Assembly: GCF_007746795.1 (NCBI RefSeq)
Contig: NZ_CP036343.1
Location: 2,159,869-2,223,868, forward strand
Direction of reading: 5' to 3'
Origin: Gimesia algae
GTDB taxonomy: Bacteria; Planctomycetota; Planctomycetia; Planctomycetales; Planctomycetaceae
DNA length: 64,000 nt
The first letter of the stretch is position 1. Each line of letters starts with the position of its first letter. The notes under the pieces were generated by a model. It was not told the origin of the DNA. It ran no database searches and saw only the letters and a list, made by a program, of their open reading frames with translations. Of the stretch, positions 20,192 to 34,161 are shown piece by piece. The translations under genes and the position numbers were made by a program.

Positions 20192-21109
20192 ATGAGAATG
20201 ACTCAACGCAACGAGAAACGCGGCTTTACTTTGATCGAACTTCTAGTTGTGATCGCCATTATTGCTATCCTCATCGCATTACTTCTTCCCGCCGTTCAGC
20301 AGGCCCGCGAAGCAGCACGTCGCAGTACCTGCAAGAATAACCTGAAACAGATCGGCCTGGCGCTGCATAACTACCATGATACGCATCGTGTCTTCCCCCT
20401 CATGTACCAGGGACTTTCCAGTGGTGCACCCAATCTCGGTGCGACCAATGGACTGGGTATTGCCTGGGGAACTTATATTCTCCCGTTCATGGACCAGGCC
20501 AATTTATACGAAAGCATTTCCACACGGATGTTTGGCGCCACGGGCAACGGGGCCGGTATTCACTGGTTGAACGACACCACCGCAACAGTGGGCACAACCA
20601 CCCTGGCAAAGACCATTCTGCCCGCCTTCATCTGTCCTTCCGACCCGATGGGAGGCATCAATACCGACCGTGGTTCGTACGGGAAATCAAACTACCTGGC
20701 AGTCGTAGGTACCGACTGGGATGGCGATGGCCCTATCTCTGGTACAACAACGCCCACCTACAAAGGTGCCTTCTATGGAAACTCTGCTAATCGAATGCGT
20801 GATTTTATAGACGGTACCAGCAACACATTTCTGGCAGGAGAACGCACTACCGAAGGAGCCGCCAATGGTGGCATCTGGATTGGCGCCCGAGGAACCCGTT
20901 CGGACAACGGTCTGCGAACTTCCGCTAATGGCAACTTCCTGATCAATAACGCAGGCGCGACCGATGGAGCCGCCAGCAGTACACACGTCGGCGGTTGTCA
21001 CTTCCTTTTCGGTGATGGACGCATCAGCTTTCTGAGCGAAAACATCAGTTCAGAAACCTACGAGTACCTGGGATTGATCAATGACGGAAAAGTCATTGGC
21101 GAATATTAA
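20192..21109 (+). CDS. DUF1559 pseudopilin-like protein
   Basis: A 305-residue DUF1559 protein. The basic leader MRMTQRNEKRG is followed by [20 protein letters not shown] with E at +5, [13 protein letters not shown] and [17 protein letters not shown]; the C-terminus has HVGGCHFLFGDGRISFLSEN. Processing by a prepilin peptidase and a surface or periplasmic location are expected from the signature. AAAGGAA lies upstream of the ATG at 20192, and ATG at 20198 is an alternative. Unlike the other two DUF1559 genes here it has no lipoprotein partner downstream; instead copy A of the dispersed 94-bp repeat starts 5 bp after its stop and a terminator follows at 21245-21277. Confidence 0.92.
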   Translation: MRMTQRNEKRGFTLIELLVVIAIIAILIALLLPAVQQAREAARRSTCKNNLKQIGLALHNYHDTHRVFPLMYQGLSSGAPNLGATNGLGIAWGTYILPFMDQANLYESISTRMFGATGNGAGIHWLNDTTATVGTTTLAKTILPAFICPSDPMGGINTDRGSYGKSNYLAVVGTDWDGDGPISGTTTPTYKGAFYGNSANRMRDFIDGTSNTFLAGERTTEGAANGGIWIGARGTRSDNGLRTSANGNFLINNAGATDGAASSTHVGGCHFLFGDGRISFLSENISSETYEYLGLINDGKVIGEY

Positions 21110-21113
21110 ACAA

Positions 21114-21208
21114 TAGACTGTGTCCAGTTTTACTGTAGCGTCTCCAGGGCCATTTGGACCGAGTATAATAGATTGGGAGACGCTATGGTTAAATGTGATG
21201 CGCTCTAG
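21114..21208 (-). repeat. Dispersed 94-bp repeat, copy A
   Basis: Runs from TAGACTGTGTCCAG to GATGCGCTCTAG; read on the minus strand it starts CTAGAGCGCATCAC and ends GGACACAGTCTA, like copies B-D. The inner arms GCGTCTCC and GGAGACGC are fully complementary, enclosing an A/T-rich segment and a GGTCC/GGCCC mini-stem. It begins 5 bp after the DUF1559 stop codon. Confidence 0.85.
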
Positions 21209-21244
21209 TGAATCCGGTTCGTCGAACCTGATTCCAGCAATTCA

Positions 21245-21277
21245 AAAACGGTTGTTCCTGCGAACAGCCGTTTTTTT
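21245..21277 (+). terminator. Rho-independent terminator
   Basis: AAACGGTTGTTC and GAACAGCCGTTT form a 12-bp stem with one mismatch and a CTGC loop, followed by seven T. It should end the DUF1559 transcript after passing through repeat copy A. Confidence 0.8.
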
Positions 21278-21337
21278 ATGCGCCCTGTAGAAAATCATTG
21301 TGATTCAGCAATGCTGATTTGAATCAAGCAGCAGTCA

Positions 21338-21375
21338 TAAAAAAAGTGCGTCAGCCCTTTACAGACTGACGCACC
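21338..21375 (-). terminator. Rho-independent terminator of the hibernation-factor-like gene
   Basis: On the minus strand GTGCGTCAG pairs with CTGACGCAC around an 11-base loop and is followed by seven T (A-run at 21339-21345 on the plus strand). It lies 31 bp beyond the stop of the gene at 21407-21781. Confidence 0.82.
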
Positions 21376-21406
21376 CTATTAATAGATTCTATTGTTGAAA
21401 TACGGA

Positions 21407-21781
21407 TTAAATTTCCGCTTCGACTTCTGGTAACGGTTCGGTAATCGAATGCAGAGGCTGACGTTTTTTATTACGTTTTTTAGCCACCTGTCGTTTGAGC
21501 GTATGCGCGGCTCGTTTGATGGCATGCGTGATCGCCGTGGAAATCCGCTCCTGGGTATCTTGGACAATCACGGGCGCACCGGATTGCGTATGCACGACGA
21601 TTCGACAACGTTTACTGATTCCGCCGCGCGGGCCGTTGATATCGGTTAGATAAATGCTGACAGTACGAATCCAGTTATCAATCCGATCGATTGCCTGGTC
21701 CCACTGAGTTTCGACAAATTCTTTCGTTTGAGCACTGCAGTCGGTCTGCAACGCAACACATTCGAAGTCATAGTTTCGCAT
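21407..21781 (-). CDS. HPF/RaiA-family ribosome hibernation factor-like protein
   Basis: A 124-residue cytoplasmic protein resembling the short sigma-54-modulation/S30EA (HPF, RaiA) family, which binds the small ribosomal subunit and inactivates ribosomes in stationary phase or starvation. The pattern fits: VSIYLTDINGPRGGISKRCRIVVHTQ as the two central strands, then QDTQERISTAITHAIKRAAHTLKRQV as the second long helix and a lysine/arginine-rich tail. The first strand (YDFECVALQTDC) is less typical, so the assignment is by fold and not strong identity. AGAGGAGAG stands upstream of the ATG. It has its own terminator (21338-21375), and copy B of the dispersed repeat lies 37 bp upstream of its start. 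Neighbouring genes suggest a starvation or oxygen-stress role. Confidence 0.75.
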   Translation of the reverse strand: MRNYDFECVALQTDCSAQTKEFVETQWDQAIDRIDNWIRTVSIYLTDINGPRGGISKRCRIVVHTQSGAPVIVQDTQERISTAITHAIKRAAHTLKRQVAKKRNKKRQPLHSITEPLPEVEAEI

Positions 21782-21818
21782 CTAACTCTCCTCTGTGAAA
21801 AATAAAGTCACTCGGATA

Positions 21819-21912
21819 CTAGAGCATGTCGTAATTCACCATAACGTCTCTCGATAGATTTTTTCGGTCCGAAGGGACAGGGAGACGTGACAGTAATACC
21901 GGACACAGTCTA
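21819..21912 (+). repeat. Dispersed 94-bp repeat, copy B
   Basis: Starts CTAGAGCATGTC and ends GGACACAGTCTA. The inner arms are ACGTCTC and GAGACGT, so both halves of the outer pair differ from copy A (G-C there, A-T here), a compensatory change. The inner mini-stem is GTCC/GGAC. It sits in the leader region of the hibernation-factor-like gene, in the opposite orientation to copy A. Confidence 0.8.
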
Positions 21913-22016
21913 AGTCCATTTTATCTAACGCTGATTGGCAGACAATAAGATAATTAGAAATAACACCCGCTGGGAATATTCTTATAATTTTCTGTTCACT
22001 TCCCCTATAAACCGGT

Positions 22017-22514
22017 TTACTGATCAGTCGAAATCAGCGGTCGCTGCTGTTTCTGCTGCTCAGAGCAGACTCTGACCATCAGATCAAACTCTGCTGATTC
22101 GTGTTCCTGAAATGCACGATAGAAGTCTCTAAACAGATCAACTTGTCTGGTATAGGCCTCTTCATCCATGTGCGGATAGAGCATCTCCTCGGCTTGCTCT
22201 GCGATGGAACAGATTTGCAGATACAGTTCCTCGTGCTGAGCATGCAGCCGCTGTGCTTCGGCTGAGAGCAGCGGATCGGAACTCACCGGTTTTTCGAAAT
22301 ATCCAAACGCATTTTCCAGCGCAAAATGCATGGCAATCTGATCGCGCAGATCGCTGATGAGCCTACTGAACCATTCCGGCCGGAACACATCGGGACTATT
22401 CACCAGCCAGCAGGCACGAAGATGATCCAGCAGTCCATACAGCCGGAGATTGTCATCCTTGATCTCCTGCAAAAAGGCAGCATTGATTGTCAGTTTCGGG
22501 TTGACGCTGATCAT
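22017..22514 (-). CDS. Hemerythrin-like HHE-domain protein
   Basis: A 165-residue, mainly helical cytoplasmic protein with candidate iron ligands in the order of a hemerythrin HHE domain: LLDHLRA (first helix), HFALENAFGYFE (second), RLHAQHEELYLQI (third) and FQEHESAEFDLM (fourth). Hemerythrin-like proteins bind a di-iron centre and sense or store oxygen, or bind nitric oxide; which applies here is unknown. Its ATG overlaps the stop of the BON-like gene upstream by 4 bp (ATGA), so both are translated from one message. The neighbouring two-component pair and hibernation factor suggest a stress role. Confidence 0.82.
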   Translation of the reverse strand: MISVNPKLTINAAFLQEIKDDNLRLYGLLDHLRACWLVNSPDVFRPEWFSRLISDLRDQIAMHFALENAFGYFEKPVSSDPLLSAEAQRLHAQHEELYLQICSIAEQAEEMLYPHMDEEAYTRQVDLFRDFYRAFQEHESAEFDLMVRVCSEQQKQQRPLISTDQ

Positions 22515-22813
22515 GATCTTGTTTCTTCCCTTTGCTTGAAGTGGGCTTCGAACAGCCTCTGTTCTTTACCAACCTGAATCCAGATGTGAACGGGACAGGT
22601 CGTTCTGCTGTCCCGCGCCGCAAATATTTGTCGCACGATGCTTAACAATCTTTGTAAAGCGTAATAGGAGGCTGTGCTGCCACGCACACACAATCGCCCT
22701 CCCTCCATGTCCAGCTTCAGCTCATGGAACAGCATTCTGTAGTTCGTTGATACAATTCGAGAAATGAAATACTTGAAAAAATCTGGATGCTGGTTCAGAG
22801 TGATCTTCGACAT
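22511..22813 (-). CDS. Small BON-like domain protein
   Basis: A 100-residue protein with no signal peptide. FFKYFISRIVSTNYRMLFHEL is a helix-strand unit, and GGRLCVRGSTASYYALQRLLSIVRQIF matches the central G and following helix of a BON domain, as does the corresponding segment (LILRGELPSYYQMQLAL) of the protein at 9463-9726. Function is unknown; BON domains usually interact with membranes or ligands. It is the first gene of a two-gene operon with the hemerythrin-like gene (4-bp overlap). A sigma-54-like site lies about 190 bp upstream (23002-23017). Confidence 0.7.
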   Translation of the reverse strand: MSKITLNQHPDFFKYFISRIVSTNYRMLFHELKLDMEGGRLCVRGSTASYYALQRLLSIVRQIFAARDSRTTCPVHIWIQVGKEQRLFEAHFKQREETRS

Positions 22814-23001
22814 GAGAACATTGCCCCTCTATGAGCTGAAATCGATTCCTGATGTGCTGCCCTCTACTGTCAACCGGGGTTGACGGTCTTCGCACAGGGC
22901 AGGCAATTCACGTTGACACCCTGCTTGAAGGCAATCTGATGTTTCTGTCGTCGTTCTGCTGAAAAAAACAGTAATCGCTGCCGACAGGACCAACAGGCTC
23001 C

Positions 23002-23017
23002 TGCAAACAGAGCTCCC
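23002..23017 (-). promoter_or_regulatory. Weak candidate sigma-54 promoter
   Basis: On the minus strand GGGAGCTCTGTTTGCA has GG and GC ten bases apart and the full TTGCA half, but two mismatches in the TGGCAC part beyond the first base. It would serve the BON-like/hemerythrin operon (start 22813). Confidence 0.35.
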
Positions 23018-23175
23018 TGATCTCACCGTAATCAGACTCCATGACTGGATTCGCAAACCCTGTGCCGAACTGGCTTATCAACCACAGCGACAGTTCTGAT
23101 CGTCCGTGCGGACAGCAGACGCTGCAGCACGCAACACCGTTTCAGAAACAGGAAGGCGGCCAAACCGCAGGCGAG

Positions 23176-23191
23176 TGGCACACCGATTGCA
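23176..23191 (+). promoter_or_regulatory. Perfect-consensus sigma-54 promoter
   Basis: TGGCACACCGATTGCA matches TGGCAC-N5-TTGCA at every defined position. The expected transcript start is near 23203, giving a leader of roughly 125 nt before the ATG of the 48-residue membrane protein at 23330. An NtrC-type activator is encoded 1.6 kb downstream. Confidence 0.75.
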
Positions 23192-23329
23192 TCATGATCC
23201 CTCGACCTCGATTCGCTGCAGCTTCCTGCGAATTGACTGAGGAGTAAGATGCTGCAGGACTCGGGGGGACAGGCGGTACGCATTTCAGCGGGGATACCAG
23301 AATCAATCGCTTTAGAAAGGACCCCAGCA

Positions 23330-23476
23330 ATGTCACACAAACCTCACTTCTCGTTCAGGCCAGATCAGCACCGTGAACCAGTCATCAACCTCATGACCAG
23401 CCGGGAAATTCTGCTGGGACAATTCATTCTCATGCTGGTGACGCTCATCGCGATTTTATTGCGATATCTGAACTGA
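23330..23476 (+). CDS. 48-residue single-helix membrane protein
   Basis: Short ORF starting at the ATG at 23330, with AGAAAGGA eight bases upstream. The first half is polar and histidine/arginine-rich (MSHKPHFSFRPDQHREPV); the second half is one membrane helix (about residues 29-46, LLGQFILMLVTLIAILLR). No family is recognised. It is framed by a perfect sigma-54 promoter (23176-23191) and a 12-bp stem terminator-like structure (23490-23539), so it looks like a complete single-gene unit. The role may be in membrane stress, judging by the neighbours and by sigma-54 control; this is inference only. Confidence 0.6.
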   Translation: MSHKPHFSFRPDQHREPVINLMTSREILLGQFILMLVTLIAILLRYLN

Positions 23477-23489
23477 AACACGTTCCGAG

Positions 23490-23539
23490 CAGTCTGCAGT
23501 CCGGAAAATTGATCTGACTGCAGACTGACTTACTTTTTT
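23490..23539 (+). terminator. Terminator-like stem-loop
   Basis: CAGTCTGCAGTC (23490-23501) and GACTGCAGACTG (23516-23527) are perfectly complementary around a 14-base loop; six T follow at 23534-23539 after a short spacer. It lies 13 bp after the stop of the 48-residue ORF. Confidence 0.65.
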
Positions 23540-23575
23540 CCTGTTGAATTCTATCAGTTACGATGTGGAACAGCG

Positions 23576-23581
23576 TATAAT
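23576..23581 (+). promoter_or_regulatory. Candidate -10 element giving a leaderless kinase transcript
   Basis: TATAAT ends seven bases before the A of the ATG at 23589, so initiation at the usual distance would start the message at the start codon. No good -35 element is visible (ATCAGT at 17-bp spacing), and there is no ribosome site before the ATG. Confidence 0.35.
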
Positions 23582-23588
23582 CAAAATT

Positions 23589-24764
23589 ATGAAAACGACT
23601 CTTCCCACCGATGATGTGTTCAACAACGACTGCTTTCGTGCAATTGCCAATTGTACGTATGACTGGGAAAGCTGGCATACCAGTGCTGGCCGCCTGTTAT
23701 GGGTGAATGCTGCGGTAGAACGGATGACCGGCTACTCTCCGCAAGAATGCCTGACGATGAGCGATTACCCTCTGCCGATCGTAGCGCCGGAAGATCGGGA
23801 TAAGATTGCTGCAGTTCTGAAACAGGCACAGGCGGATGAAATTGGAAACGATGTGGAGTTTCGCGCCATCCACCGTGAAGGGCATGAACTCTGGATGGCC
23901 GTTTCCTGGCAGCCGATGATTCACGAGAATGGAAAGCATCTGGGCTTTCGAACCAGTATTCGCGATATTACCGAACGCAATCAACTGCGCGAGCAGTTGC
24001 GACTGCACGCAGCGCATCTGGAACAGCTGGTGCAGGAACGGACCGCACAGATTACGCAGCTGGAAAAGAACCGTCGCAAAATGGAAAAGCTGGCAGCACT
24101 CGGACAACTGGCAGCTGGCGTCGCGCATGAAGTCAATAATCCCCTGGCAGGAATTCGCAACGCATTCGCCCTGTTCAAAGCAGACGTACCAGCGGAGCAC
24201 GAACACTTCGAACTGCTGGAACTGATCGATCGGGAGATTGAAAGAATCAGTTCGATTACGCATCTGATGTATCAGCTGTATCGTCCGAGTGCCCAACGCT
24301 CCACATCTTTCATGATCGGCAACATCGTGGAAGATGTCATTCGCCTGCTGGAACCAGCGGCGCGCAAGGCACAGGTTGAGGTGGAACGGGAAGCCGCTGC
24401 AACCGACATCCAGGTCACATTACCTGAAGGAGAAGTCAAACAGATCCTGCTGAATCTGATTCAAAATGCGATCCAGGCCTCAGCGCCCGGCGATACCGTT
24501 TCCATCCACGTCAGTAGCTTGAACGAAACAGTCAGAGTTGAGGTAGCAGATCAGGGTTCGGGGATCACAGAAGAGAATCTGCCCCGCATTTTTGACCCGT
24601 TTTTCAGCACCAAACCCAGTATGCCTCGCCAGGGAATGGGGTTGGGGCTCTCTGTTTCGCGCAGTCTGATCGAAGCGTTGGGCGGGAGTATTGATGTCGT
24701 AAGTGCTCCCGGATCGGGGGCCCGCTTTACAGCCAGTTTTCCCATATCGACCCAGCAATCCTGA
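23589..24764 (+). CDS. PAS-domain sensor histidine kinase (NtrB-like)
   Basis: A 391-residue kinase without membrane segments. One PAS domain (about 15-125, ending [14 protein letters not shown]), a coiled-coil linker, and a HisKA domain with phospho-acceptor H180 in [12 protein letters not shown], a motif of NtrB/AtoS/ZraS-type kinases that pair with sigma-54 regulators. The HATPase domain has N-box [16 protein letters not shown] and [12 protein letters not shown]. The ATG at 23589 is chosen over an upstream in-frame TTG (23544). It is followed after 27 bp by the sigma-54-type regulator at 24792, clearly its partner. The signal sensed is unknown; the cytosolic PAS could sense redox or oxygen state. 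Confidence 0.92.
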
Positions 24765-24791
24765 GGCACTTTCAACAATAGCAGAACGATC

Positions 24792-26189
24792 ATGACGAAC
24801 ACTCCCGCACACCGTATTTTAATCGCCGATGATGAACCGCTTTACTTGAGAACCACGGGCGAACTCCTGCGCAAATCAGGTTACGAATGCGTCTGCGTTC
24901 CCAATGCGCAACAGGCACTCGAAGCGCTGCAGACCCAGCCATTCGATCTGATTCTCTCGGATCTGAACATGCCCGGAAATTTCAAGCTCGAATTGCTTCG
25001 AGCAGGGCGACGCAACTGGTCTCACATCCCCCTGATTGTGGTAACCGGCGTCCCTTCCATCCCCTCTGCCATTGAGAGTATCCGCCTGGGCATTACCGAC
25101 TACCTGCTGAAGCCTGTCAAATTTGAAGATTTACTCAGCAGTGTCCGCCGCGCGATCGCCAGCACTGAGAAGGCTGCACACACACCTGCGACTGAGGTTC
25201 CGGAACAACGTGAACTGTCAGATCGATACCCCGAGATCATCGGCCGCAGTGCTCCTGTCATGGAATTGCTGGAAATCATCGATCGCCTGGCAGAAAGTGA
25301 TGCCAACGTCCTGATCACGGGGGAAAGCGGAACAGGGAAAGAAGTGGTGGCCCGCGCCATTCACCTGCACAGTCATCGGCAGAAACACAACTTCCAGGTG
25401 ATCGACTGCACGGCGATTCCCGAATCTCTGTTCGAGTCGGTCCTGTACGGCCATGTCAAAGGATCGTTCACCGGCGCGGTGAAAGATCAGGCTGGCTTGC
25501 TCAGTCTCTGTCATCAGGGAACCGCTTTTTTTGACGAGCTGGGAGAATTACCGCTGACCTCTCAGGCCAAACTCCTGCGTGCCATTCAGGAATCAAAGTT
25601 TACCCCCGTCGGAAACAACACACAGATCGAAGTCGATACCCGCTTCATCAGCGCCACCAATCGTGATCTGGAAATGGAAGTTAAAGAGAGACGATTTCGC
25701 GAAGACCTGTTTTATCGACTGGGAGTGATTCATGTTGAACTCCCCCCCCTACGTGATCGTGGAACTGACATCCTGCTGCTGGCAGAACACTTTCTCCCCG
25801 AACTCAAGCCGGCAAAGTCACCGGTAAGTGGTTTCTCTGCTGAGACGCTGGAATGCTTTCAACAGTACGGCTGGCCTGGAAACATCCGCGAGTTGCGAAA
25901 TGTCATTGAACGTGCAGCCACTTTGTCGCGTTCCGATTGCATTGAACTCACCGATCTGCCAGAACAACTCAGGCGGAATGTAACTGACGGGGAATCCGCG
26001 TCCATCGATTTACAACATGCCTCGCGAAATGAAGCAGTCGAAACGGCCGAGCACTCTTACCTCGCTTCACTCTTGGAAAAACATGCCGGCAATATTTCAC
26101 AGGCAGCCCAGCAGGCCGGCCTCTCCCGCCAGGGAATGCACAAGCTGTTAAAAAAACATGGGCTGTCTGCCGCCGACTATCGCAACTGA
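24792..26189 (+). CDS. NtrC-family sigma-54-dependent response regulator
   Basis: A 465-residue enhancer-binding protein. The receiver domain (1-125) has the acidic pocket DDE (13-15), phospho-acceptor D57 in [10 protein letters not shown] and the conserved K of YLLKPVK. The AAA+ domain has Walker A GESGTGKE, the sigma-54 contact loop in the variant form GSFTGA (usually GAFTGA), Walker [11 protein letters not shown], and [15 protein letters not shown]. The Fis-type helix-turn-helix at the C-terminus is [23 protein letters not shown]. It should activate sigma-54 promoters after phosphorylation by the kinase encoded just upstream. The nearby sigma-54-type sites at 23176 and 26344 are natural candidate targets. 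Confidence 0.95.
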
Positions 26190-26257
26190 CACCCTCTGTT
26201 TCCAGTGACTGTCAACGGCAGTTCACACATACGGTTCAGTACGCCGATATTGTCACA

Positions 26258-26287
26258 GCCTTTCTTAAAAGAGGCAGTCTTTTTTAT
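26258..26287 (+). terminator. Weak terminator-like hairpin
   Basis: GCCTTTCTT pairs imperfectly with AAAGAGGC, and a run of six T follows a few bases later. It would end the kinase/regulator transcript. Imperfect stem, so low confidence. Confidence 0.35.
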
Positions 26288-26343
26288 TACTCTCAATAGC
26301 ATATTCCCGTATCGCTGAAATATTCTGGAGACTTTTTCACGAC

Positions 26344-26359
26344 TGGTCTGTTTTTTGCA
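26344..26359 (+). promoter_or_regulatory. Candidate sigma-54 promoter
   Basis: TGGTCTGTTTTTTGCA has GG and GC exactly ten bases apart and the complete TTGCA half; the -24 half is TGGTCT in place of TGGCAC. It lies 85 bp upstream of the Rnk-like gene start at 26445, directly downstream of the sigma-54 regulator gene. Confidence 0.5.
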
Positions 26360-26444
26360 ATTAAAGACTTCTGTTGATCCGGACTGTTCCCAATCACCCG
26401 AAGCACTTCAATTCGACGATCCACGACATGAGAGGAAACCAGCG

Positions 26445-26858
26445 ATGAATCAGCAGAAGATATTCATCACCAAAACCGATTACCAGCGGCTGCATAATCT
26501 GCTACGCAGCGATTTCACGCAGGCAATCGGCAATAAACCTTATTTGAGCGGACTTCATGCCGAACTTGCTGTGGCGCAAATTGTAGAATCAGACGAGATT
26601 CCCCCAGATGTGGTCACCATGAACTCAACCGTGCGACTGCGTGATCTGGAGACTGACGAACTGGAAACTTATACGCTCGTGTATCCGCAGGATGCGAATA
26701 TTAAAGTAGGAAAACTCTCGATTCTCACGCCCATCGGCACCGCGATCCTCGGTTACCGCATCGGCGATCAGTTACGCAGTCGGGCTTTAGCTGGCGGCGG
26801 TAAAATTCGAGTTGAAGAAATTTTATTCCAGCCGGAACGGGCGGGACTGACAATTTAG
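26445..26858 (+). CDS. rnk: Rnk/GreA-C-terminal-type protein
   Basis: A 137-residue cytoplasmic protein matching regulators of nucleoside diphosphate kinase (Rnk): an N-terminal helical part (ITKTDYQRLHNLLRS) and a GreA/GreB C-terminal FKBP-like domain with VTMNSTVRLRDLETDELETYTLVYPQDAN, KLSILTPIGTAILGYRIGDQ. Rnk binds RNA polymerase and influences nucleotide pools and polysaccharide production in Pseudomonas and E. coli. GAGAGGAAACC precedes the ATG at 26445, chosen over the longer ORF from 26355. A sigma-54-type site lies 85 bp upstream. Its TAG stop codon is the first three bases of repeat copy E. Confidence 0.85.
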   Translation: MNQQKIFITKTDYQRLHNLLRSDFTQAIGNKPYLSGLHAELAVAQIVESDEIPPDVVTMNSTVRLRDLETDELETYTLVYPQDANIKVGKLSILTPIGTAILGYRIGDQLRSRALAGGGKIRVEEILFQPERAGLTI

Positions 26859-26935
26859 ACGGTGTCCCGTTTGACTGTCGCGTCTCCTGTGGTATTTGCT
26901 TCACTGAGGCATCGGGGAGACCAGGCGTTCGACTA
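26856..26935 (-). repeat. Dispersed 94-bp repeat, diverged copy E
   Basis: The first 32 bases follow copy A closely (TAGAC-GTGTCC-GTTT-ACTGT-GCGTCTCC); the middle has diverged and the GGGAGAC arm is kept. Both flanking convergent genes stop inside it: TAG of the Rnk-like gene at 26856-26858 and TAG of the flavin reductase at 26935-26933. Confidence 0.6.
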
Positions 26936-27535
26936 TTGCGGTCGTTCCATTTCGAATCGATCTGTCGTGCGACAGTACCAGCTGGGCCGGGCCATTCTGC
27001 CAATCAGCCGCAGTTCTTCCGACCGGATGCGCATGGTATCCGCTTCCCAGTACTGATCCTGAATATGCACCCGCTTGACCAGCCCGATCACCAGCCGGTT
27101 ATCGCCGATCTGCAGCGTCCCCCATTCCGCACACTCCAGACTCGCCGGTGCAGCCGCGAGTCGGGGAGGTTTGACAGTCGAAGACGGCAACACTTCCATC
27201 CCTGCCGCTTCGACTTCACTCACGCCAAAAGGCAGACTGGCTGCCGTCTGATTCATCTGCTCTGCCAGCGATTCATCCACCAGGTTAACCACGAACTCAT
27301 GCAGCTTACGCACATTGATCGCGGTATCTTTCGGCGTACCATCTTCGCGATTCCCCGGACAGAACCCGACGATCGGCGGATGCGCGCCCAGCACATTGAA
27401 AAAACTGAAAGGCGCCGCATTCACGACGCCCGCCTCATCCAGTGATGTCACCCACGCGATCGGACGAGGAGTCACCAGTGACGATAATACGGCGTAAGCA
27501 CGATCCAGATCCGCACCTTCAAAATCAAGTTCCAT
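26933..27535 (-). CDS. Flavin reductase family (FMN-binding split-barrel) protein
   Basis: A 200-residue cytoplasmic protein of the flavin reductase-like family: LTPRPIAWVTSLDEAGVVNAAPFSFFN is the typical flavin-binding opening, followed by PPIVGFCPG, KDTAINVRKLHEFVVNLV and LECAEWGTLQIGDNRLVIGLV. These proteins bind FMN and reduce flavins or act on unknown substrates with NAD(P)H. It converges on the Rnk-like gene, with repeat copy E in the 75-bp gap. No neighbour on the same strand is close, so it is probably transcribed alone. Confidence 0.88.
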   Translation of the reverse strand: MELDFEGADLDRAYAVLSSLVTPRPIAWVTSLDEAGVVNAAPFSFFNVLGAHPPIVGFCPGNREDGTPKDTAINVRKLHEFVVNLVDESLAEQMNQTAASLPFGVSEVEAAGMEVLPSSTVKPPRLAAAPASLECAEWGTLQIGDNRLVIGLVKRVHIQDQYWEADTMRIRSEELRLIGRMARPSWYCRTTDRFEMERPQ

Positions 27536-27632
27536 GGGTAGCCAAATCTAGAAAAAATGAGGGGATGATATCAGATACAGCAATTCTATTCTCTCACATC
27601 ACTTTCAACACACAACCGGTTTGAATGCTATC

Positions 27633-28016
27633 TTACATTTCGTCTCTGCAATTAAGTCCGTGTTCGTCCATCAAGCGACGCAGATCATGCCATTCATCCT
27701 GAAACGATCCGTGAGATCTTCCAGCCATACTGGTTAGAAAACCAGTGCGCTCAATATTCCAGTAATACTCTAATAGTTCGGGAGAGTAGTTTTGGAGGAT
27801 GGCAGGCAGATTGTGAATGTGATCTGCTTCCGTTTCACACTCCTCAGCATGTCCTTCACTGCCTGATTTCCTTATTCGCAACAGGGCCACACTGAGAATA
27901 CGCAACAAGACATCAGCAATTTCATCGGGACACAGCATACATTTCTCTTGTGAATAAAAACAAAAAACTGCATCTTCCACGCTGCCATCAGATGTGGCAG
28001 CGGGAAGGAGATCCAC
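27633..28016 (-). CDS. Hypothetical protein
   Basis: A 127-residue ORF with no recognised family. It reads like real protein: mixed charged and aromatic residues (for example ADHIHNLPAILQNYSPELLEYYWN) and a cysteine-containing middle (CMLCPDEIADVLL). The start given is a GTG seven bases after the dienelactone hydrolase stop, without a ribosome site. An in-frame ATG at 27938 (giving 102 residues) has AAGAGAAA upstream and may be the true start. It follows the hydrolase on the same strand and may be translated from the same message. Confidence 0.5.
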   Translation of the reverse strand: MDLLPAATSDGSVEDAVFCFYSQEKCMLCPDEIADVLLRILSVALLRIRKSGSEGHAEECETEADHIHNLPAILQNYSPELLEYYWNIERTGFLTSMAGRSHGSFQDEWHDLRRLMDEHGLNCRDEM

Positions 28017-28022
28017 TGCAGG

Positions 28023-28919
28023 TTAGTCGTTTTCTGCCAGGTTCTTTTTGAAGAAGGCCACTGTCCGCTCCCATGCTTTTTTCGCGGCGGCATCGTCGTA
28101 GCGGGGAGTCGTGTCATTGTGAAAGCCGTGATTGGCCCCTTCATACACGAAAGCCTCGAATGTTTTACCATTCTTTTTGAGCGCCGCTTCAAACGGCCCG
28201 GCTCCGGCCATGATGCGTTTGTCGAGCGAAGCGTTCTGAATCATCAGCGGTGCCTTGATCTTCGACACATCTTCCAGGTCAGGTTGCCGACCATAGAAGG
28301 GAACTCCTGCGTCGACCACATCGGGAAGTTTAGCGGCAAGTTCATACACCACACCGCCCCCATAACAGAAACCGACAGCGCCGACTTTACCGGTCGACTT
28401 CGGATTGGTATCCAGGAACTTGGCCGCGGCGATAAAGTCTTCGGTCATCTTAGCTTTATCGCGTTTGGCCTGCATCGCACGACCGTCATCGTCATTGCCC
28501 GGATAACCACCCAGCGGGGTCAATGCATCGGGGGCAAACGCCAGAAAGCCATCGACGGCCAGCCGCCGCGCGACGTCTGCGATATACGGATTCAAACCGC
28601 GATTCTCATGAATCACCAGCACGGCCGGAAACTTCTTCCCCTTCGCCGGCCAGGCGAGCAGGCCTTTCATTTCGCCCGCCCCTTCAGGCGACTTATAGGT
28701 GACCGTCTCGGTCTTGATGCGTGGATCATCAGGTTTGACCTGCTCTGCCCAGGCATAGTTGGGGCTCAGGCTGGCCATCAGAGCTTCCGCCGTCATCCCC
28801 CCCACAGCAAACATCCCGAGCTTTTTAATATAATCACGGCGGTTGAGTCGTCCATGAGCATAGTCGTCATACAAATCCAGAACTTCCTGATCAAACTCTG
28901 ATGTTTCTTTACGTTCCAT
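28023..28919 (-). CDS. Dienelactone hydrolase family protein
   Basis: A 298-residue alpha/beta hydrolase of the dienelactone hydrolase family. An N-terminal extension (about 1-60) carries [15 protein letters not shown] and a hydrophobic run, a possible Tat-type signal. The catalytic triad is visible: nucleophile C185 in GFCYGGG, D233 in NASLDKRI and H264 in GANHGFHND, with the conserved E105 in IHENRGL that holds the cysteine in place. Members hydrolyse lactones in chloroaromatic degradation, but many act on unknown esters. The hypothetical gene at 27633-28016 follows 6 bp downstream. Confidence 0.9.
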
Positions 28920-29378
28920 AAGTATTCTCTTTCCTGTTGCGATTGAATTTAGCTGGCCTCACTCTCTGATTTGGGGAATCGACCAGAGCCGCTATCGATT
29001 CAAATTTCCCCAGAGGCGGTCCGGTTTATTATAAAGTTCGAACCAGTGGGGTGAAACGATTTTTCAGAGAAAGCTCTGCCACATTTCCACCAGTGACAAC
29101 AGTGTTCCCGAAAATGTGGATCGATCAGGATCAGATCGAGACAACATGATCTGCTCAGCCTGAGGGGAAGTGGACACTCTGGTTGTCGAGATTCATATTA
29201 TTCAGAACCTCAGTTGTGCTTAGTAGTTTACATGAAGCACACTTCGAATTCTTCATAGAGAGTTTTGTTATCAATCCAGGAGTGCAATCGTCATGAATCT
29301 GCAGAAAGAACGCCAACGAAAGCATTCTGGCTGATCAGAAAGACGCAGTTGAAGCCCCAGGCTTATCCTTGATCACTC
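28920..29378. other. Intergenic region with a cluster of GATC sites
   Basis: 459 bp with no supported gene. Five GATC tetramers lie within 33 bp (29119-29151), including an imperfect inverted arrangement CGATC...GATCG. I see no DnaA boxes or AT-rich unwinding region beside it, so an origin is not supported. Confidence 0.4.
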
Positions 29379-31400
29379 TTATTTCTCGACAGTTTCAGCG
29401 GGAACCAGCAATTCCCCGGGGGTCAGCGCCAGCACGGCCGGGATACCGACGAGCTGCACGTAATGGTCTTCAAAGCCCCCCTCTGTGGGACGGTCCAGCA
29501 CCAGTCGCCACATTTCTCCCGCTGGATTCTGCTTGTGGAGTCCTGTGTACAATTTGGGCTTCACGATATTCTGTTCCGACCAGACCTGCTGGCCGGACGA
29601 ATCATACAGTCTCGCACTGACCCGTTCTCCCACACCGCCACCAAACACACCCACCGACCACTTTTCAACTCCAGCAGGAACCCAGAAGTAGAAGTCACCA
29701 GTCGCCGCCATCAGTCGAATCGGTGCCCCTTCCGAAGTCAGGCAGAGACGATGCGTTGACTGATCGACCGTGACAAAGTTCGCTCCCGGATCACAGTTGA
29801 TACGATACACGCCCGTTTCCGGAGCCTTGAATTCACAGGTCGCAGTCTCCTTAAAAGGAACCGCGGGCACGGGAATCACCTTACCGGAAGGAGCAATCAC
29901 CGTCACAGGCAGCTTGACTCCCGTATAACGGACCAGTTGATGATAGGTCAATTGAACAGAGACCTTGTCTCCCTGCTTTGCATATAGCAGATATCGAGAC
30001 AACGCACGTTGACGCACCATGCGTCGCGGCGTTGTCTTGATTGTAGCGTTCGAATCCAGAGGCTGAAGCTGGCTGATATCAATCTGATAAGGCGTGATAT
30101 TGCCCGCTTCGCTGGGCGGCATCCACTGATTAATCAACGCGGCATTCAACCGGTAGTTATCTTTCTGATCCCCCTGTTGAACCTGCAATGTTCCCGTCAC
30201 ATTGGCCACGGAACCAATATACGAAGCATCATAGAACGACATCACCGGATGTCCGGCAGCAGATTTGACTACACATTGATCAAAAGTCACGCCACCAATC
30301 TTACCGACGACTCCGGCGCGCGCGGTAAACTGGATGACCGGCAGTGCGGCATCATCATTCTCCGGGCCGATGATCGTACATTTTTTAAGAGTGATCGGAC
30401 AGACATCTGCCGGCTTGTCGAGAAACTGAACGGGGCTCTGATCGGTACTTTCAAAAGTACAGTTCTCAAAATCGATCGATCCCGTCACGCTGCCCGGTGT
30501 GTTATTTCTGGTCGTACAGGAGAGGGCCCTCCCCTTGCCTGTACTGCGACAGTTCTCAAACCGAATGGAGACCGGTTTTGAATCCCGGGTTAAATTCGGC
30601 AGATACAGTAGATAACCGGGACCCTGATTATTTTCCGAAACACAATTTCGCAGCACACAGTTAACCAGGCATTCATCAGCGTGGTTGGGTTCAAAATCAA
30701 CCCCCGCCATCGGCGCCGTGCCGGCCGTTTCTTTAAACACGGTGTTTTCGATCAGCAAATCCGCGGCACTGATAATGCTGATTCCCTGGCGATAATTGCG
30801 TTCAAAAACCACATCCCTGATCGTTATCTTCCGGTTGGTCACACCCCGTTTAGACACGCCCAGATACACTCCATCGCCGCCGGTTTCGCGAATCACCAGC
30901 CCGGAAACAGTGACATTACTGCAACTCCGGATGCTGATGCCGTTCCGCCACTCCGCTTTGGTATAGGGAGCCGCATCGTAATCGGCTCTCCGCATCTGCA
31001 GAATGGCTCCTGCACCCGTCAGTTTAATATTCTTCTTCAGTGACGCGTTAAACAACGAAGCGGTAGCAGCCTTGAATTCCCCTTTTTTCGCCTGAACTAC
31101 AACACCTTCTTCAAACACAATTTCCTGATCACTGGCCAGTTGGATCGGCTTCACAATCCATGCTGCCTCCCTCTTCTCAATAATCACTTTTTTTGCACCG
31201 GAATGAATCGCCGCCTGTAACGCTGCTGTCGCATCTTCCCGATCGAAGCCCCACCAGGACGCATACGCTACATCGGTCTTTCCTGCCTTCAGGCTATCAA
31301 TTGCCCGCTGATTGATGCCTGGGTTCCCGCCTGCTTCGACGGCAGTGATCATCAGGAAACAGAAGAATACAACCAGGACCCGGGAACACAATAAAGACAT
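29379..31400 (-). CDS. Secreted right-handed beta-helix (pectate-lyase-like) protein
   Basis: A 673-residue exported protein. Signal peptide MSLLCSRVLVVFFCFLMITAVEA, then a parallel beta-helix region (about 25-440) with repeated short strands such as NVTVSGLVIRETGGDGVYLG, ITIRDVVFERNYRQGISII and LIENTVFKETAG, as in polysaccharide lyases and GH28-type glycosidases. The C-terminal part (about 470-670) is a beta-sandwich-like region of unknown type. Substrate not predictable, but polysaccharides fit the nearby sulfatases. GAAAGGT precedes the ATG at 31400, so I prefer this to the longer ORF (31442). It is divergent from the DUF1501 gene at 31756. Confidence 0.82.
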   Translation of the reverse strand: MSLLCSRVLVVFFCFLMITAVEAGGNPGINQRAIDSLKAGKTDVAYASWWGFDREDATAALQAAIHSGAKKVIIEKREAAWIVKPIQLASDQEIVFEEGVVVQAKKGEFKAATASLFNASLKKNIKLTGAGAILQMRRADYDAAPYTKAEWRNGISIRSCSNVTVSGLVIRETGGDGVYLGVSKRGVTNRKITIRDVVFERNYRQGISIISAADLLIENTVFKETAGTAPMAGVDFEPNHADECLVNCVLRNCVSENNQGPGYLLYLPNLTRDSKPVSIRFENCRSTGKGRALSCTTRNNTPGSVTGSIDFENCTFESTDQSPVQFLDKPADVCPITLKKCTIIGPENDDAALPVIQFTARAGVVGKIGGVTFDQCVVKSAAGHPVMSFYDASYIGSVANVTGTLQVQQGDQKDNYRLNAALINQWMPPSEAGNITPYQIDISQLQPLDSNATIKTTPRRMVRQRALSRYLLYAKQGDKVSVQLTYHQLVRYTGVKLPVTVIAPSGKVIPVPAVPFKETATCEFKAPETGVYRINCDPGANFVTVDQSTHRLCLTSEGAPIRLMAATGDFYFWVPAGVEKWSVGVFGGGVGERVSARLYDSSGQQVWSEQNIVKPKLYTGLHKQNPAGEMWRLVLDRPTEGGFEDHYVQLVGIPAVLALTPGELLVPAETVEK

Positions 31401-31755
31401 GAAATACCTTTCATAAGCAGCAGGAGTCTGCGTGACAATCATAGAGTTACTGAAGAATTTTCCGGTTCATCTGACTGCTCCGGCGGGGATTCACGGAAGA
31501 TTTTCCTCAAAACAGGCCACAGAAATGGACGATGCAAGGAGAACAGACAGCGATCCGCTCCCCCCACTGAAACTACCAGTTATTCCAATAGTAACGACCT
31601 GAACAATTCCCGACAGCATTCAAAGGTCGTGCTGGACTTAAATTGGAAAGAATGTTAACATAAGCATCAACAGATATGAGACGCAACCTGTTTACATTGC
31701 ACATGATACCATTGAGTCTATACCGGACTCCTGCTTCATAACAGAGGAACGAGAT
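31401..31755. other. Intergenic region between divergent genes
   Basis: 355 bp with no gene that I can support; presumably holds the divergent promoters of the beta-helix and DUF1501 genes. No clear -10/-35 or sigma-54 element was found. The 218-codon minus-strand ORF covering part of it is a shadow of the DUF1501 gene. Confidence 0.4.
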
Positions 31756-33159
31756 ATGCAACGACGGCAATTTCTGGTGGCATCGGGAGTCGGCTTTGCC
31801 GGTATGACGTTCGGAAAACCGACCGCTGTTAAGTCTGCTCCTCAGAACAAAACGGCCCCCGGGCGCAAAACTGCCAAATCCACCATTCTGTTCTTTCTGT
31901 GTGGCGGTGCTTCGCATCTCGACATGTGGGATATGAAACCCCAGGCGCCTTCCAACTATCGGGGGATGTTTTCTCCCATTCAGACTTCCGCACCAGGAGT
32001 TCAACTCTGCGAGCATCTGCCGATGCTCTCCAAACAGGCACATCACCTGGCCGTGATCAATTCCGTTGGTGCAACCGTCAACACAAACGACCATCACGCC
32101 GGCTACTATTACAATCTGACCGGACACATTCCCGATCAGTCCTTTATCACACTCGGAAACAACCGCACTCCCATGCCGGACGACTGGCCTTACATGGGCT
32201 CGGTTGTAGCCTCGCGACGCCCCACACACAAGAGTCTGCCGAACGCGATTTCTCTACCCCACATGCCCAGCCGCGCCCCTTACACGCGACCCGGTCAATT
32301 CGCCGCCCGCATCGGTGTTGAACACGACCCCATGTACATTCAGGGAACCCGCGAAGAACCGCTCAAGCTCCGCGGCCCTGCCATGTCGCTCGAAGGCGAT
32401 GTCACCGCAGATCGACTGACAGAACGCATGTCACTTCTAAAACAGCTTGACACCGCCCGCCGTAACTTCGATGGCTTTGCCGAAATTTCCACCATGAACC
32501 GGCATCAGGAACGCGCTTTGTCGCTGTTGCTTTCCTCTGATTCCACCTCCGCATTCGATCTGGAGCAGGAATCCCAGGCTACCATGGAGCGGTATGGAAA
32601 AACGATCAACGGCATGAGCCTGCTGGTTGCCCGACGACTGGTGGAAGCGGAAGTCCCCTTCATCACCGTCTTCTGGAAAGGGGACCTCAACAAACTCGGC
32701 AAAAAATGTAAGAGTGCCGGCAGCTGGGATACACACGGTAACAATTTCAATTGCCTCAAAGAAAATCTGCTCCCCGAATTCGACCGCGCCTATTCCGCTT
32801 TGATTGAAGATCTCAACGACCGTGGTCTGCTCGATGAAACACTGGTCATGGTCACCAGCGAAATGGGCCGTAAGCCCAAAATCGGCGACCCCCGTTCTGG
32901 CGGAATATCAGGCGCCGGACGCGATCACTGGACACACTGCCTGACAGACGTGCTCGCTGGCGGAGGAATCAAAGGCGGACAGACCTTCGGTGCCAGCGAC
33001 CGCTACGGCGAATACCCGCTCAACAGCCCGGTCACCCCCGCTGACGTCACCCACACCGTCTACCACGCCATGGGCATCGACGACCTCATCGCTTACGACA
33101 AACTGGAACGCCCCTACCATCTGCTTGATGACTCAAAGCCTTTGACGTCGCTGTTCTAG
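31756..33159 (+). CDS. DUF1501 family secreted protein
   Basis: A 467-residue DUF1501 protein with a Tat-like start (MQRRQFLVASGVGFAGMTFG) and the family landmarks LFFLCGGASHLDMWDMKPQAPSNYRG, HTNDHHAGYYYNLTGH-type metal-site region, RRLVEAEVPFITVFW, WDTHGNNF, VMVTSEMGRKPKIG, GRDHWTHCLTDVLAGGGIKGG and YHAMGID. AGAGGAAC precedes the ATG. Unlike the other two DUF1501 genes in the window it has no PSD1 neighbour. Its TAG stop codon lies inside the first bases of repeat copy C (CTAGAGC), so the repeat defines the C-terminus. Confidence 0.9.
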   Translation: MQRRQFLVASGVGFAGMTFGKPTAVKSAPQNKTAPGRKTAKSTILFFLCGGASHLDMWDMKPQAPSNYRGMFSPIQTSAPGVQLCEHLPMLSKQAHHLAVINSVGATVNTNDHHAGYYYNLTGHIPDQSFITLGNNRTPMPDDWPYMGSVVASRRPTHKSLPNAISLPHMPSRAPYTRPGQFAARIGVEHDPMYIQGTREEPLKLRGPAMSLEGDVTADRLTERMSLLKQLDTARRNFDGFAEISTMNRHQERALSLLLSSDSTSAFDLEQESQATMERYGKTINGMSLLVARRLVEAEVPFITVFWKGDLNKLGKKCKSAGSWDTHGNNFNCLKENLLPEFDRAYSALIEDLNDRGLLDETLVMVTSEMGRKPKIGDPRSGGISGAGRDHWTHCLTDVLAGGGIKGGQTFGASDRYGEYPLNSPVTPADVTHTVYHAMGIDDLIAYDKLERPYHLLDDSKPLTSLF

Positions 33160-33250
33160 AGCGCATCACATTGAACCATAGCGTCTCTCAATCTATGATA
33201 CTCGGTCCAAATGGACCTGGAAACGCGACAGTAAAACTGGACACAGTCTG
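33156..33250 (+). repeat. Dispersed 94-bp repeat, copy C
   Basis: Starts CTAGAGCGCATCAC and ends GGACACAGTCT. The inner mini-hairpin GGTCC-AAAT-GGACC (33204-33217) is perfect; the outer arms are GCGTCTC and GAAACGC. The TAG at its start is the stop codon of the DUF1501 gene. Confidence 0.85.
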
Positions 33251-33261
33251 AACCGTATGAG

Positions 33262-33816
33262 ATGCGACGTGAAGCCATGATTCCTTCCGACAACAGTTGG
33301 CAACCACCTCCCGTCGCAGACATTCAATCAACTCTTGGTGACTGCAACAGTTGGGTCCTGTGCGGCGGATGCTCCATTGACTGGCTGCTCGGAAAGACAA
33401 CCCGAGAACATGCTGATACTGATATCGGCCTCTTTCGATCAGACCTCATAACCTGTTTGAACTCCATCGAACAATCACGTGTCTTTCTCTGTGATCCACC
33501 CGGTCAGCTCCTCGCCTGGAATGGTCTTGAGGTTCCTGCACACGTACACGATATCTGGATTACCAGCAAAGACAGAAATCACTGGGCTCTGCAATTAATG
33601 GTCTATGATGACAGCGCTGACACGGTCATCTATCGCCGCGACCCTCGCATCACCTGGCCCAAAAGCCGACATGCAATTTCGATACGCGGAATTAGAGTTC
33701 TAAATCCAGTCGTGACGCTCCTGTTTAAACTGCATCGACAGGAATTACAGGACAAAGATTGCCAGGATATTTCCACGCTGATTAATGCCGCGATTACATT
33801 TTCCAATGACGAATAA
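33262..33816 (+). CDS. Nucleotidyltransferase-like protein (ANT(2'')-type fold)
   Basis: A 184-residue cytoplasmic protein resembling the aminoglycoside 2''-adenylyltransferase/lincosamide-type nucleotidyltransferase superfamily: LCGGCSIDWLLGKTTREHADTDIGLF holds the GG..(I)D motif (35-40), R48-E-H and the metal-binding pair D52-x-D54. WALQLMVYDD, ITWPKSRHAISIRGIRVLNPVVTLLFKLHRQELQDKDCQDI match the remainder of the fold. Family members transfer a nucleotide to small molecules; antibiotic modification is only one possibility and is not shown here. The gene is bracketed by direct repeat copies C and D, 12 bp upstream and 14 bp downstream, as a compact cassette. Confidence 0.75.
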   Translation: MRREAMIPSDNSWQPPPVADIQSTLGDCNSWVLCGGCSIDWLLGKTTREHADTDIGLFRSDLITCLNSIEQSRVFLCDPPGQLLAWNGLEVPAHVHDIWITSKDRNHWALQLMVYDDSADTVIYRRDPRITWPKSRHAISIRGIRVLNPVVTLLFKLHRQELQDKDCQDISTLINAAITFSNDE

Positions 33817-33830
33817 CCCAGACGAAGGAC

Positions 33831-33923
33831 CAGAGCGCATCACCTTTCACCATCGCGTCTCTCAGTCTGGGATACTCGGTCCAAATGGCTCTGGAGAGTC
33901 TACAGTAAAACGGGACACAGTCC
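33831..33923 (+). repeat. Dispersed 94-bp repeat, copy D
   Basis: Starts CAGAGCGCATCAC and ends GGACACAGTCC, in the same orientation as copy C, 14 bp after the nucleotidyltransferase stop. The outer arm pairing is partly lost (GCGTCTC against GAGAGTC). Confidence 0.82.
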
Positions 33924-34161
33924 AGGTTGAGATTTGACTACAAACGGAGATCAAGGTGAGCTACGCCCCTCTCAAACTCAGCTGCAAACCAGGACGAATC
34001 CAATCTCAGCGAACTTTTGATTTCTCCTGATTGAAACGTGATCCGACCGCCCTCATCCGGTATCATGAAAACCGTCGATTGAGAGAATGATTTCAATACC
34101 ACTGAATTTCATCCGTTCATAAAACGACCATCGCAGCCTCTGTTCAACAAAGCACACCCCA
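33924..34161. other. Short intergenic region before the sulfatase
   Basis: Together with copy D this is a 345-bp gap between the nucleotidyltransferase and sulfatase genes. No gene or clear promoter is seen in it. Confidence 0.4.

Follow-up and report, generated by a model that had tools for sequence, protein, structure and literature searches.

A 64,000-nucleotide stretch of the Gimesia algae genome (NCBI RefSeq GCF_007746795.1, contig NZ_CP036343.1, positions 2,159,869 to 2,223,868; hereafter the window, its genome being designated G000) carries a short palindromic repeat at five places, copies A to E, and this locus raises the question of whether the repeat is a structured RNA or a piece of mobile DNA and, if it is mobile, what moves it. 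The original prediction had named both a REP/MITE-type mobile hairpin and a conserved structured RNA. We are highly confident that the copies are non-autonomous miniature inverted-repeat transposable elements (MITEs) of ~92 bases and IS630 type, forming a family that is new but of a familiar type. A profile model built from 59 copies (model R1), among them B, C and D as well as L009, whose sequence is that of A, placed all five copies, so that the predicted dispersed family proved to be real, with A to D full-length and E decayed, and the coordinates proposed for A to D were correct to 1-2 bases (Table 1). Since A (as the identical L009), B, C and D are inside the model, only copy E has an independent score, and its detection by nhmmer was limited to the right 43 model positions. 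The sequence of copy A is identical to that of a copy elsewhere in the same genome (G000:C1:6997616-6997710).

The family consensus, CTAGAGCGCATCACATTTAACCATAGCGTCTCTCAATCTATTATACTCGGTCCAAATGGCCCTGGAGACGCTACAGTAAAACTGGACACAGTCTA, begins with a left terminal repeat, TAGAGCGCATCACATTTAACCATAGCGTCTC, and ends with a right terminal repeat that reads inward as TAGACTGTGTCCAGTTTTACTGTAGCGTCTC, with a middle of ~30 bases between them. The left arm and the reverse-complemented right arm align imperfectly over ~31 bases, and for this reason the element also aligns to itself in reverse complement. A transposase would not fit into the 95 positions of the model, and the reading frames reach at most ~30 codons. 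The unit is therefore short (<300 bp), repeated, without a transposase gene and equipped with terminal inverted repeats, as MITEs are. The inner inverted pair GCGTCTC/GAGACGC that had been predicted for the family is perfect in copy A, but it contains one mismatched base in copy C (GAAACGC) and a broken arm in copy D, and the predicted GGTCC/GGACC mini-stem is weak, its middle pair being formed in 9 of the 59 copies. This inner stem is simply where the terminal inverted repeats end on the inside.

Searching the genome and its Gimesia relatives, as the original prediction had proposed, showed that the family extends far beyond the window. Allowing up to 3 mismatches, the 23-base right end gave 235 matches (128+107) on the single contig of G000 (7,929,454 bases) and none with the reversed control (0+0); this count is an estimate from one end only and includes fragments. 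BLAST of the same genome returned at least 44 matches (the best 40 of 299 candidates being scored), and in a profile search all 150 scored candidates matched (the best 150 of 2186 first-look candidates). The 704,718 bases of G000 that were examined, in loci that partly overlap, contained 176 distinct matches, of which 160 span the full length. Across the taxonomic family, 14 of 150 genomes had a match to model R1, among them all 11 genus members sampled, and the right-end search was positive in 16 of 17 genomes of the genus. Besides the 235 matches in G000, it found 128 in G136, 113 in G151, 39 in G152, 35 in G126, 21 in G097, 17 in G141, 15 in G154, 12 in G155, 11 in G110, 3 each in G038, G076 and G131, 2 each in G119 and G146, 1 in G150 and 0 in G153, and the control was zero everywhere but in G110 (1). 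Among named records, the exact 31-base left half returned four loci from one Gimesia sp. metagenome-assembled genome (SAT87). The unequal ends of the element are kept in copies from two genomes of other genera, G035 and G051 (TAAAACT(A/G)GAC...GTCTA), while a copy from G018 has different ends.

Three orthologous empty sites were found in two relatives, and these are 91, 92 and 92 bases shorter at one dinucleotide; the filled sites have TA at both ends of the element and the empty sites have a single dinucleotide. At the site of copy A, G151 reads AAACAA-CA-GCGAGTT where G000 reads AAACAA-TA-(element)-TA-GTGAAT, and the gain of 91 bases indicates that the flank differs by one base. The site of copy C in G151 reads GTTC-TG-AGC (92 bases shorter), and that of the copy at L039 is ATC-AG-GATTTG in G155, 92 bases shorter near the site and 93 when measured to a farther anchor beyond a T-run. 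As read by hand in the orientation of the element, a C precedes the dinucleotide at all three empty sites, indicating that this C belongs to the target and not to the element. Among the 160 full copies, the left TA is preceded by C in 89%, and the right TA is followed by A in 51% and by G in 41% (92% A/G), against a background, over 14,451 TA sites in the DNA examined, of 15% C before and 43% A/G after. The target is thus asymmetric, with a strong C on the left versus A or G on the right. Elsewhere the flanks were less informative: in G136, copy A is absent but the flank has drifted, and the site of copy C is unalignable beyond the stop codon; G151 yielded no alignable empty site for copy D; and a pair of loci considered as an empty site (L119/L033) was rejected, as G000 retains a decayed right end there.

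Candidate partners were sought among 29 loci with a PF13358 domain, 28 from the 17 genus genomes plus L061 of G000. Two of these loci, L204 (in G141) and L205 (in G150), hold 1025-bp IS630-family elements with inverted ends and CTAG at both borders. Their 28-base termini are TAGAGCGCATCACATTTTAG(T/C)ATAGC and TAGAGCGCATCACAGTTAA(G/C)CGTAGC, and the left end of the MITE matches them at 25 of 28 (L204) and 26 of 28 (L205) positions, at both ends of the insertion sequence (IS). Within this IS, an open reading frame (ORF) of 111 amino acids matches HTH_23 (8.3e-9) and HTH_Tnp_IS630 (3.5e-5), and an overlapping ORF of 213 amino acids matches DDE_3 (1.8e-33) and the NCBIfam IS630 family (2.4e-42); we infer a frameshift at the A-run between the two. 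At E <= 1e-10, 47 of 170 genomes in the taxonomic family, and 4 of the 17 in the genus, have relatives of the 213-residue protein. Thirty loci were taken from the 47 positive genomes, and two of them (L258/L259) were the L204/L205 elements again. Eleven more (L261-L265, L278, L279, L282 and L285-L287) showed inverted ends that are bounded by TA and separated by 1017-1040 bp when the threshold was set at 18/28, several starting with TAGAGCG and reaching TAGCG and others differing, while at the same threshold inverted ends were not found in 17 of the 30.

We propose that the mobile unit would comprise ~90 bp plus a duplicated TA, and that the DDE transposase of one IS630 subgroup, to which the 1017-1040 bp elements belong, most likely binds the MITE ends and excises the element. 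The excised DNA would then be pasted at the TA of a C-TA-R site with duplication of the TA, and the hairpin would be a by-product of the inverted repeats. Going by the shared terminus, a transposase of the L204/L205 type may move the MITE in trans, and such an enzyme would once have been present in this lineage and then lost. The copies of G000 look orphaned, since this genome has no match to the 213-residue partner transposase at E <= 1e-10, and they are probably stranded at present.

Several points weigh against parts of this account. Instead of TA, the relatives have CA at empty site A (+ strand), TG at site C and AG at L039, so that duplication of the TA, rather than its carriage by the element, is something we infer; we read the non-TA dinucleotides as drift. 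The gain at site A is 91 and not 92 bases, that at L039 becomes 93 with the farther anchor, and where CTAG stands at both ends the duplication could be 2-4 bases. On the side of the partner, the right end of the MITE aligns poorly with L204/L205 (alignment scores 19-22, compared with 44-48 for the left end), and the nearest IS end resembling it is one end of L262, from another genus; in consequence the evidence is good for the subgroup and weaker for the precise partner. The two genomes with the intact IS are poor in MITEs, G150 having 1 and G141 having 17 compared with the 235 of G000, and 64 of the 160 full copies resemble the consensus at 94% or more despite the missing transposase match in G000. 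The true partner may be a different IS630 member, one with the right end TAGACTGTGTCC, the MITE being perhaps a chimaera of two elements. This alternative, which we consider possible though somewhat unlikely, would account for a right terminus unlike that of L204/L205, of which one L262 end is of the same type and which is conserved in the copies of the two other genera; set against it, no element with both MITE ends (TAGAGCGCATCAC and TAGACTGTGTCC) was present among the loci examined, either the 29 PF13358 loci or the 30 from transposase-positive genomes.

The reading as a structured RNA or cis-regulatory hairpin, with a fold kept by selection, was weighed on an alignment of 59 rows, made up of nhmmer hits of at least 59 bits with one row per identical sequence; the interrupted copy L043, a partial copy in L041 and copy E were left out, and intact right ends are over-represented, L031-L060 having been chosen by that end. 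Two young copies do form the inner pair (z -1.64 and -2.26), the copies are mainly intergenic, and the stems exceed versions slid by 1-3 columns in paired cells (85.6% versus 24.9-49.2%), as a palindrome would. However, shuffled alignments have the same mean of paired cells (85.6%), pairs with a double change number 4 versus 2.8 +/- 1.1 in the shuffles, and covariation is 0.073 versus 0.075. The change from G-C to A-T in copy B, from which conservation of the fold had been argued, is indeed present, but it is a single case (1 of 59 sequences at that pair) in an alignment no better than its shuffles. RNAalifold kept 7 pairs and dropped the stem (-2.87 kcal/mol), copies B, D and E and a diverged copy at L004 gave z values of -0.83 to 1.01, and positions 20900-34200 had no Rfam match at E <= 1. 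A close relative, moreover, lacks copies A and C. Copy B is an old insertion, with an orthologue at the same position in G136 and a diverged one in G151, and its arms in G151 (CGCATCTC and GCAGACGTG) now pair poorly by eye. Overall, the structured-RNA reading is largely refuted, and we regard a fold under selection as very improbable.

Even less credence is given to a family of repetitive extragenic palindromes (REP or REPIN) mobilised by a RAYT, a tyrosine transposase of the IS200/IS605 type. There are ~200 palindromic copies and four Y1_Tnp matches in G000, and the sites would also fit insertion behind a fixed 5' CTA with no duplication; yet the four Y1 loci (~3.3 kb each) contain no match to the family at E <= 10, the hairpin has no GTAG tag next to it (by eye), and the left terminus is found instead at both ends of IS630 DDE elements. 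In the predicted REP/MITE-type hairpin, then, it is the MITE half that holds, through the empty sites and the link to an IS630 subgroup, and the REP half that lacks support.

The preferred reading of an IS630-type MITE having been set out, we turn to the placement of its copies. Each of the five copies of the window is either clear of ORFs or at the extreme end of one, in agreement with the gene-end or intergenic position predicted for them. In G000, as counted with a crude ORF caller after 7 of 160 copies with short flanks had been dropped, 5 of 153 copies were inside an ORF, compared with 260 of 388 random windows of the same loci; of the remainder, 43 were between convergent, 32 between divergent and 69 between co-directional ORFs, and 4 were at an edge. 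The element has TAG at both outer ends, and an ORF stop falls inside it in 30 of the 153 copies. The left TAG of copy C is the stop codon of a DUF1501 gene (31756-33159) for which the empty site of G151 has TGA; the gene ends in TTC-TAG in the one and TTC-TGA in the other, leaving the protein end unchanged. Likewise, the end of copy E carries the TAG stop of a GreA/GreB-like ORF (26355-26858). Copy A stands directly downstream of a DUF1559 gene, and copy B is upstream of a ribosomal S30AE-type gene.

Table 1. Family I copies and terminal repeats in the window (positions in the window; scores from model R1), with representatives of family II
Feature	Position	Strand	Remarks
Copy A	21114-21208	-	Full-length MITE, 125.6 bits
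Right terminal repeat of copy A	21114-21144	-	+ strand reading: TAGACTGTGTCCAGTTTTACTGTAGCGTCTC
Left terminal repeat of copy A	21177-21207	-	End matching the 28-base termini of IS630 elements
Copy B	21819-21912	+	Full-length, old, 80.6 bits
Copy E	26856-26946	-	Decayed remnant, weak placement, 21.7 bits, E-value 0.0028
Copy C	33156-33250	+	Full-length, 113.5 bits
Copy D	33830-33924	+	Full-length with some decay, 93.2 bits; one arm of the inner pair broken (GAGAGTC)
Family II	L043 ~1350-1455; L055:1510-1622		32 places in G000

The sequence CTAG occurs 8 times in the window versus ~248 expected from base composition, although the count reaches 0.72 of what a Markov model predicts, CTA and TAG being rare as well. 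Three of these 8 coincide with copies A, B and C, and in the DNA examined, which is centred on copies, 101 of 229 are at copies. Tandem copies share a TA with a period of 92, and among the 150 listed copies there are five such junctions in four arrays, all head-to-tail. A second CTAG-targeting MITE family (family II; ~110 bp, CTAGTGGAGTGTCA...TGACAAAGCACTAG, with ends TAGTGGAGTGTCA/TAGTGCTTTGTCA) is present in 12 of 17 genus genomes. Of its 32 matches in G000, 11 adjoin one of the 150 listed family I copies, and one family II copy sits inside a family I copy that G136 has uninterrupted, with a difference of 108 bases. We read the arrays as insertion into a CTAG borne by a MITE. Beyond this, we offer the speculation, which we think unlikely to hold as a whole, that the MITE seeds itself: where CTAG is scarce, MITE ends would be a notable store of targets, and families I and II would build tandem and nested arrays on them. 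The numbers peak in genomes where no intact partner was found (G000, G136 and G151), and the mover might be an enzyme since lost, a transient one or another IS630 subgroup, with the unequal ends persisting across at least 3 genera.

Other transposase loci were encountered in the course of this analysis. The IS630 remnant of G000 itself (L061) was rejected as a partner, being split by another element and having no family end on it. L061 and L201 (G000:C1:6788000-6800000) show an IS630-type element of another subgroup that is interrupted by an element IS5-like by eye, and the relatives of L061 at L206, L208 and L212 belong to that subgroup, with ends TAGTAACTCCGC and a length of ~1.5 kb. L062 was rejected as well, falling under the PF13358 cut-off and appearing by eye to encode an integrase-type transposase. 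Fragments of the partner transposase, with 93-94% protein identity over residues 5-131, are present at L275 (G119) and L276 (G151), and the fact that such fragments break off at the same residue in G119, G150 and G151 suggests one shared broken copy. Two loci with a Y1_Tnp gene each, L289 and L290 (G000:C1:2099253 and 3351216), are 99.9% identical over 2046 bases and have an 85% relative in L288; by their sequence they would be a recent duplication or a mobile unit. Within the window, positions 14735-19471 hold an ORF of 1578 amino acids containing direct repeats that are 92-300 bases long and mostly 77-85% alike, that is, a repeat-built protein.

These results explain a conspicuous repeat of the genus as an IS630-type MITE and indicate its IS subgroup, which aids annotation, and the pairs of empty and filled sites can be used for tracing transposition across species. 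They contribute a bacterial MITE for which an IS partner is likely and overturn nothing, and the scarcity of CTAG together with its supply by MITE ends provides a small testable idea on how arrays form. In the open-access literature on Planctomycetes MITEs and IS630, to which the search was confined (subscription papers and ISfinder being outside its scope), the family was undescribed by title or abstract among the matches listed.

Compared with known systems, the closest design is that of RUP and IS630-Spn1 in Streptococcus pneumoniae, where RUP is described as a ~107 bp element with 108-110 copies, terminal inverted repeats like those of an IS630 element and TA in the target (PMC2229807, PMC3049150). 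The likeness is one of description, not of compared sequences, and the two differ in host, in the clearly unequal termini of the present MITE and in the partner IS, which is common there while G000 has no partner transposase match. IS630/Tc1 elements such as ISY100 and IS630 have a DDE transposase and insert by cut and paste at TA, which is duplicated (PMC2170065), and a preference of IS630 for CTAG is given by a title in the reference list of the same paper; the chemistry of the present unit is presumably like that of ISY100, but unlike IS630/Tc1-mariner elements it has no transposase gene. REP/REPIN sequences with their RAYT, and palindromes tagged with GTAG or CGTC, are likewise abundant and short and have been reported from Planctomycetes too (PMC3733652), whereas for the present MITE no link to a RAYT was found in the four Y1 loci of G000 and the terminus is shared with a DDE element. 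Finally, the Correia/NEMIS elements, listed in a table of PMC2229807 as short, bearing terminal inverted repeats and having TA at the termini, resemble the present MITE by that description rather than by compared sequence.

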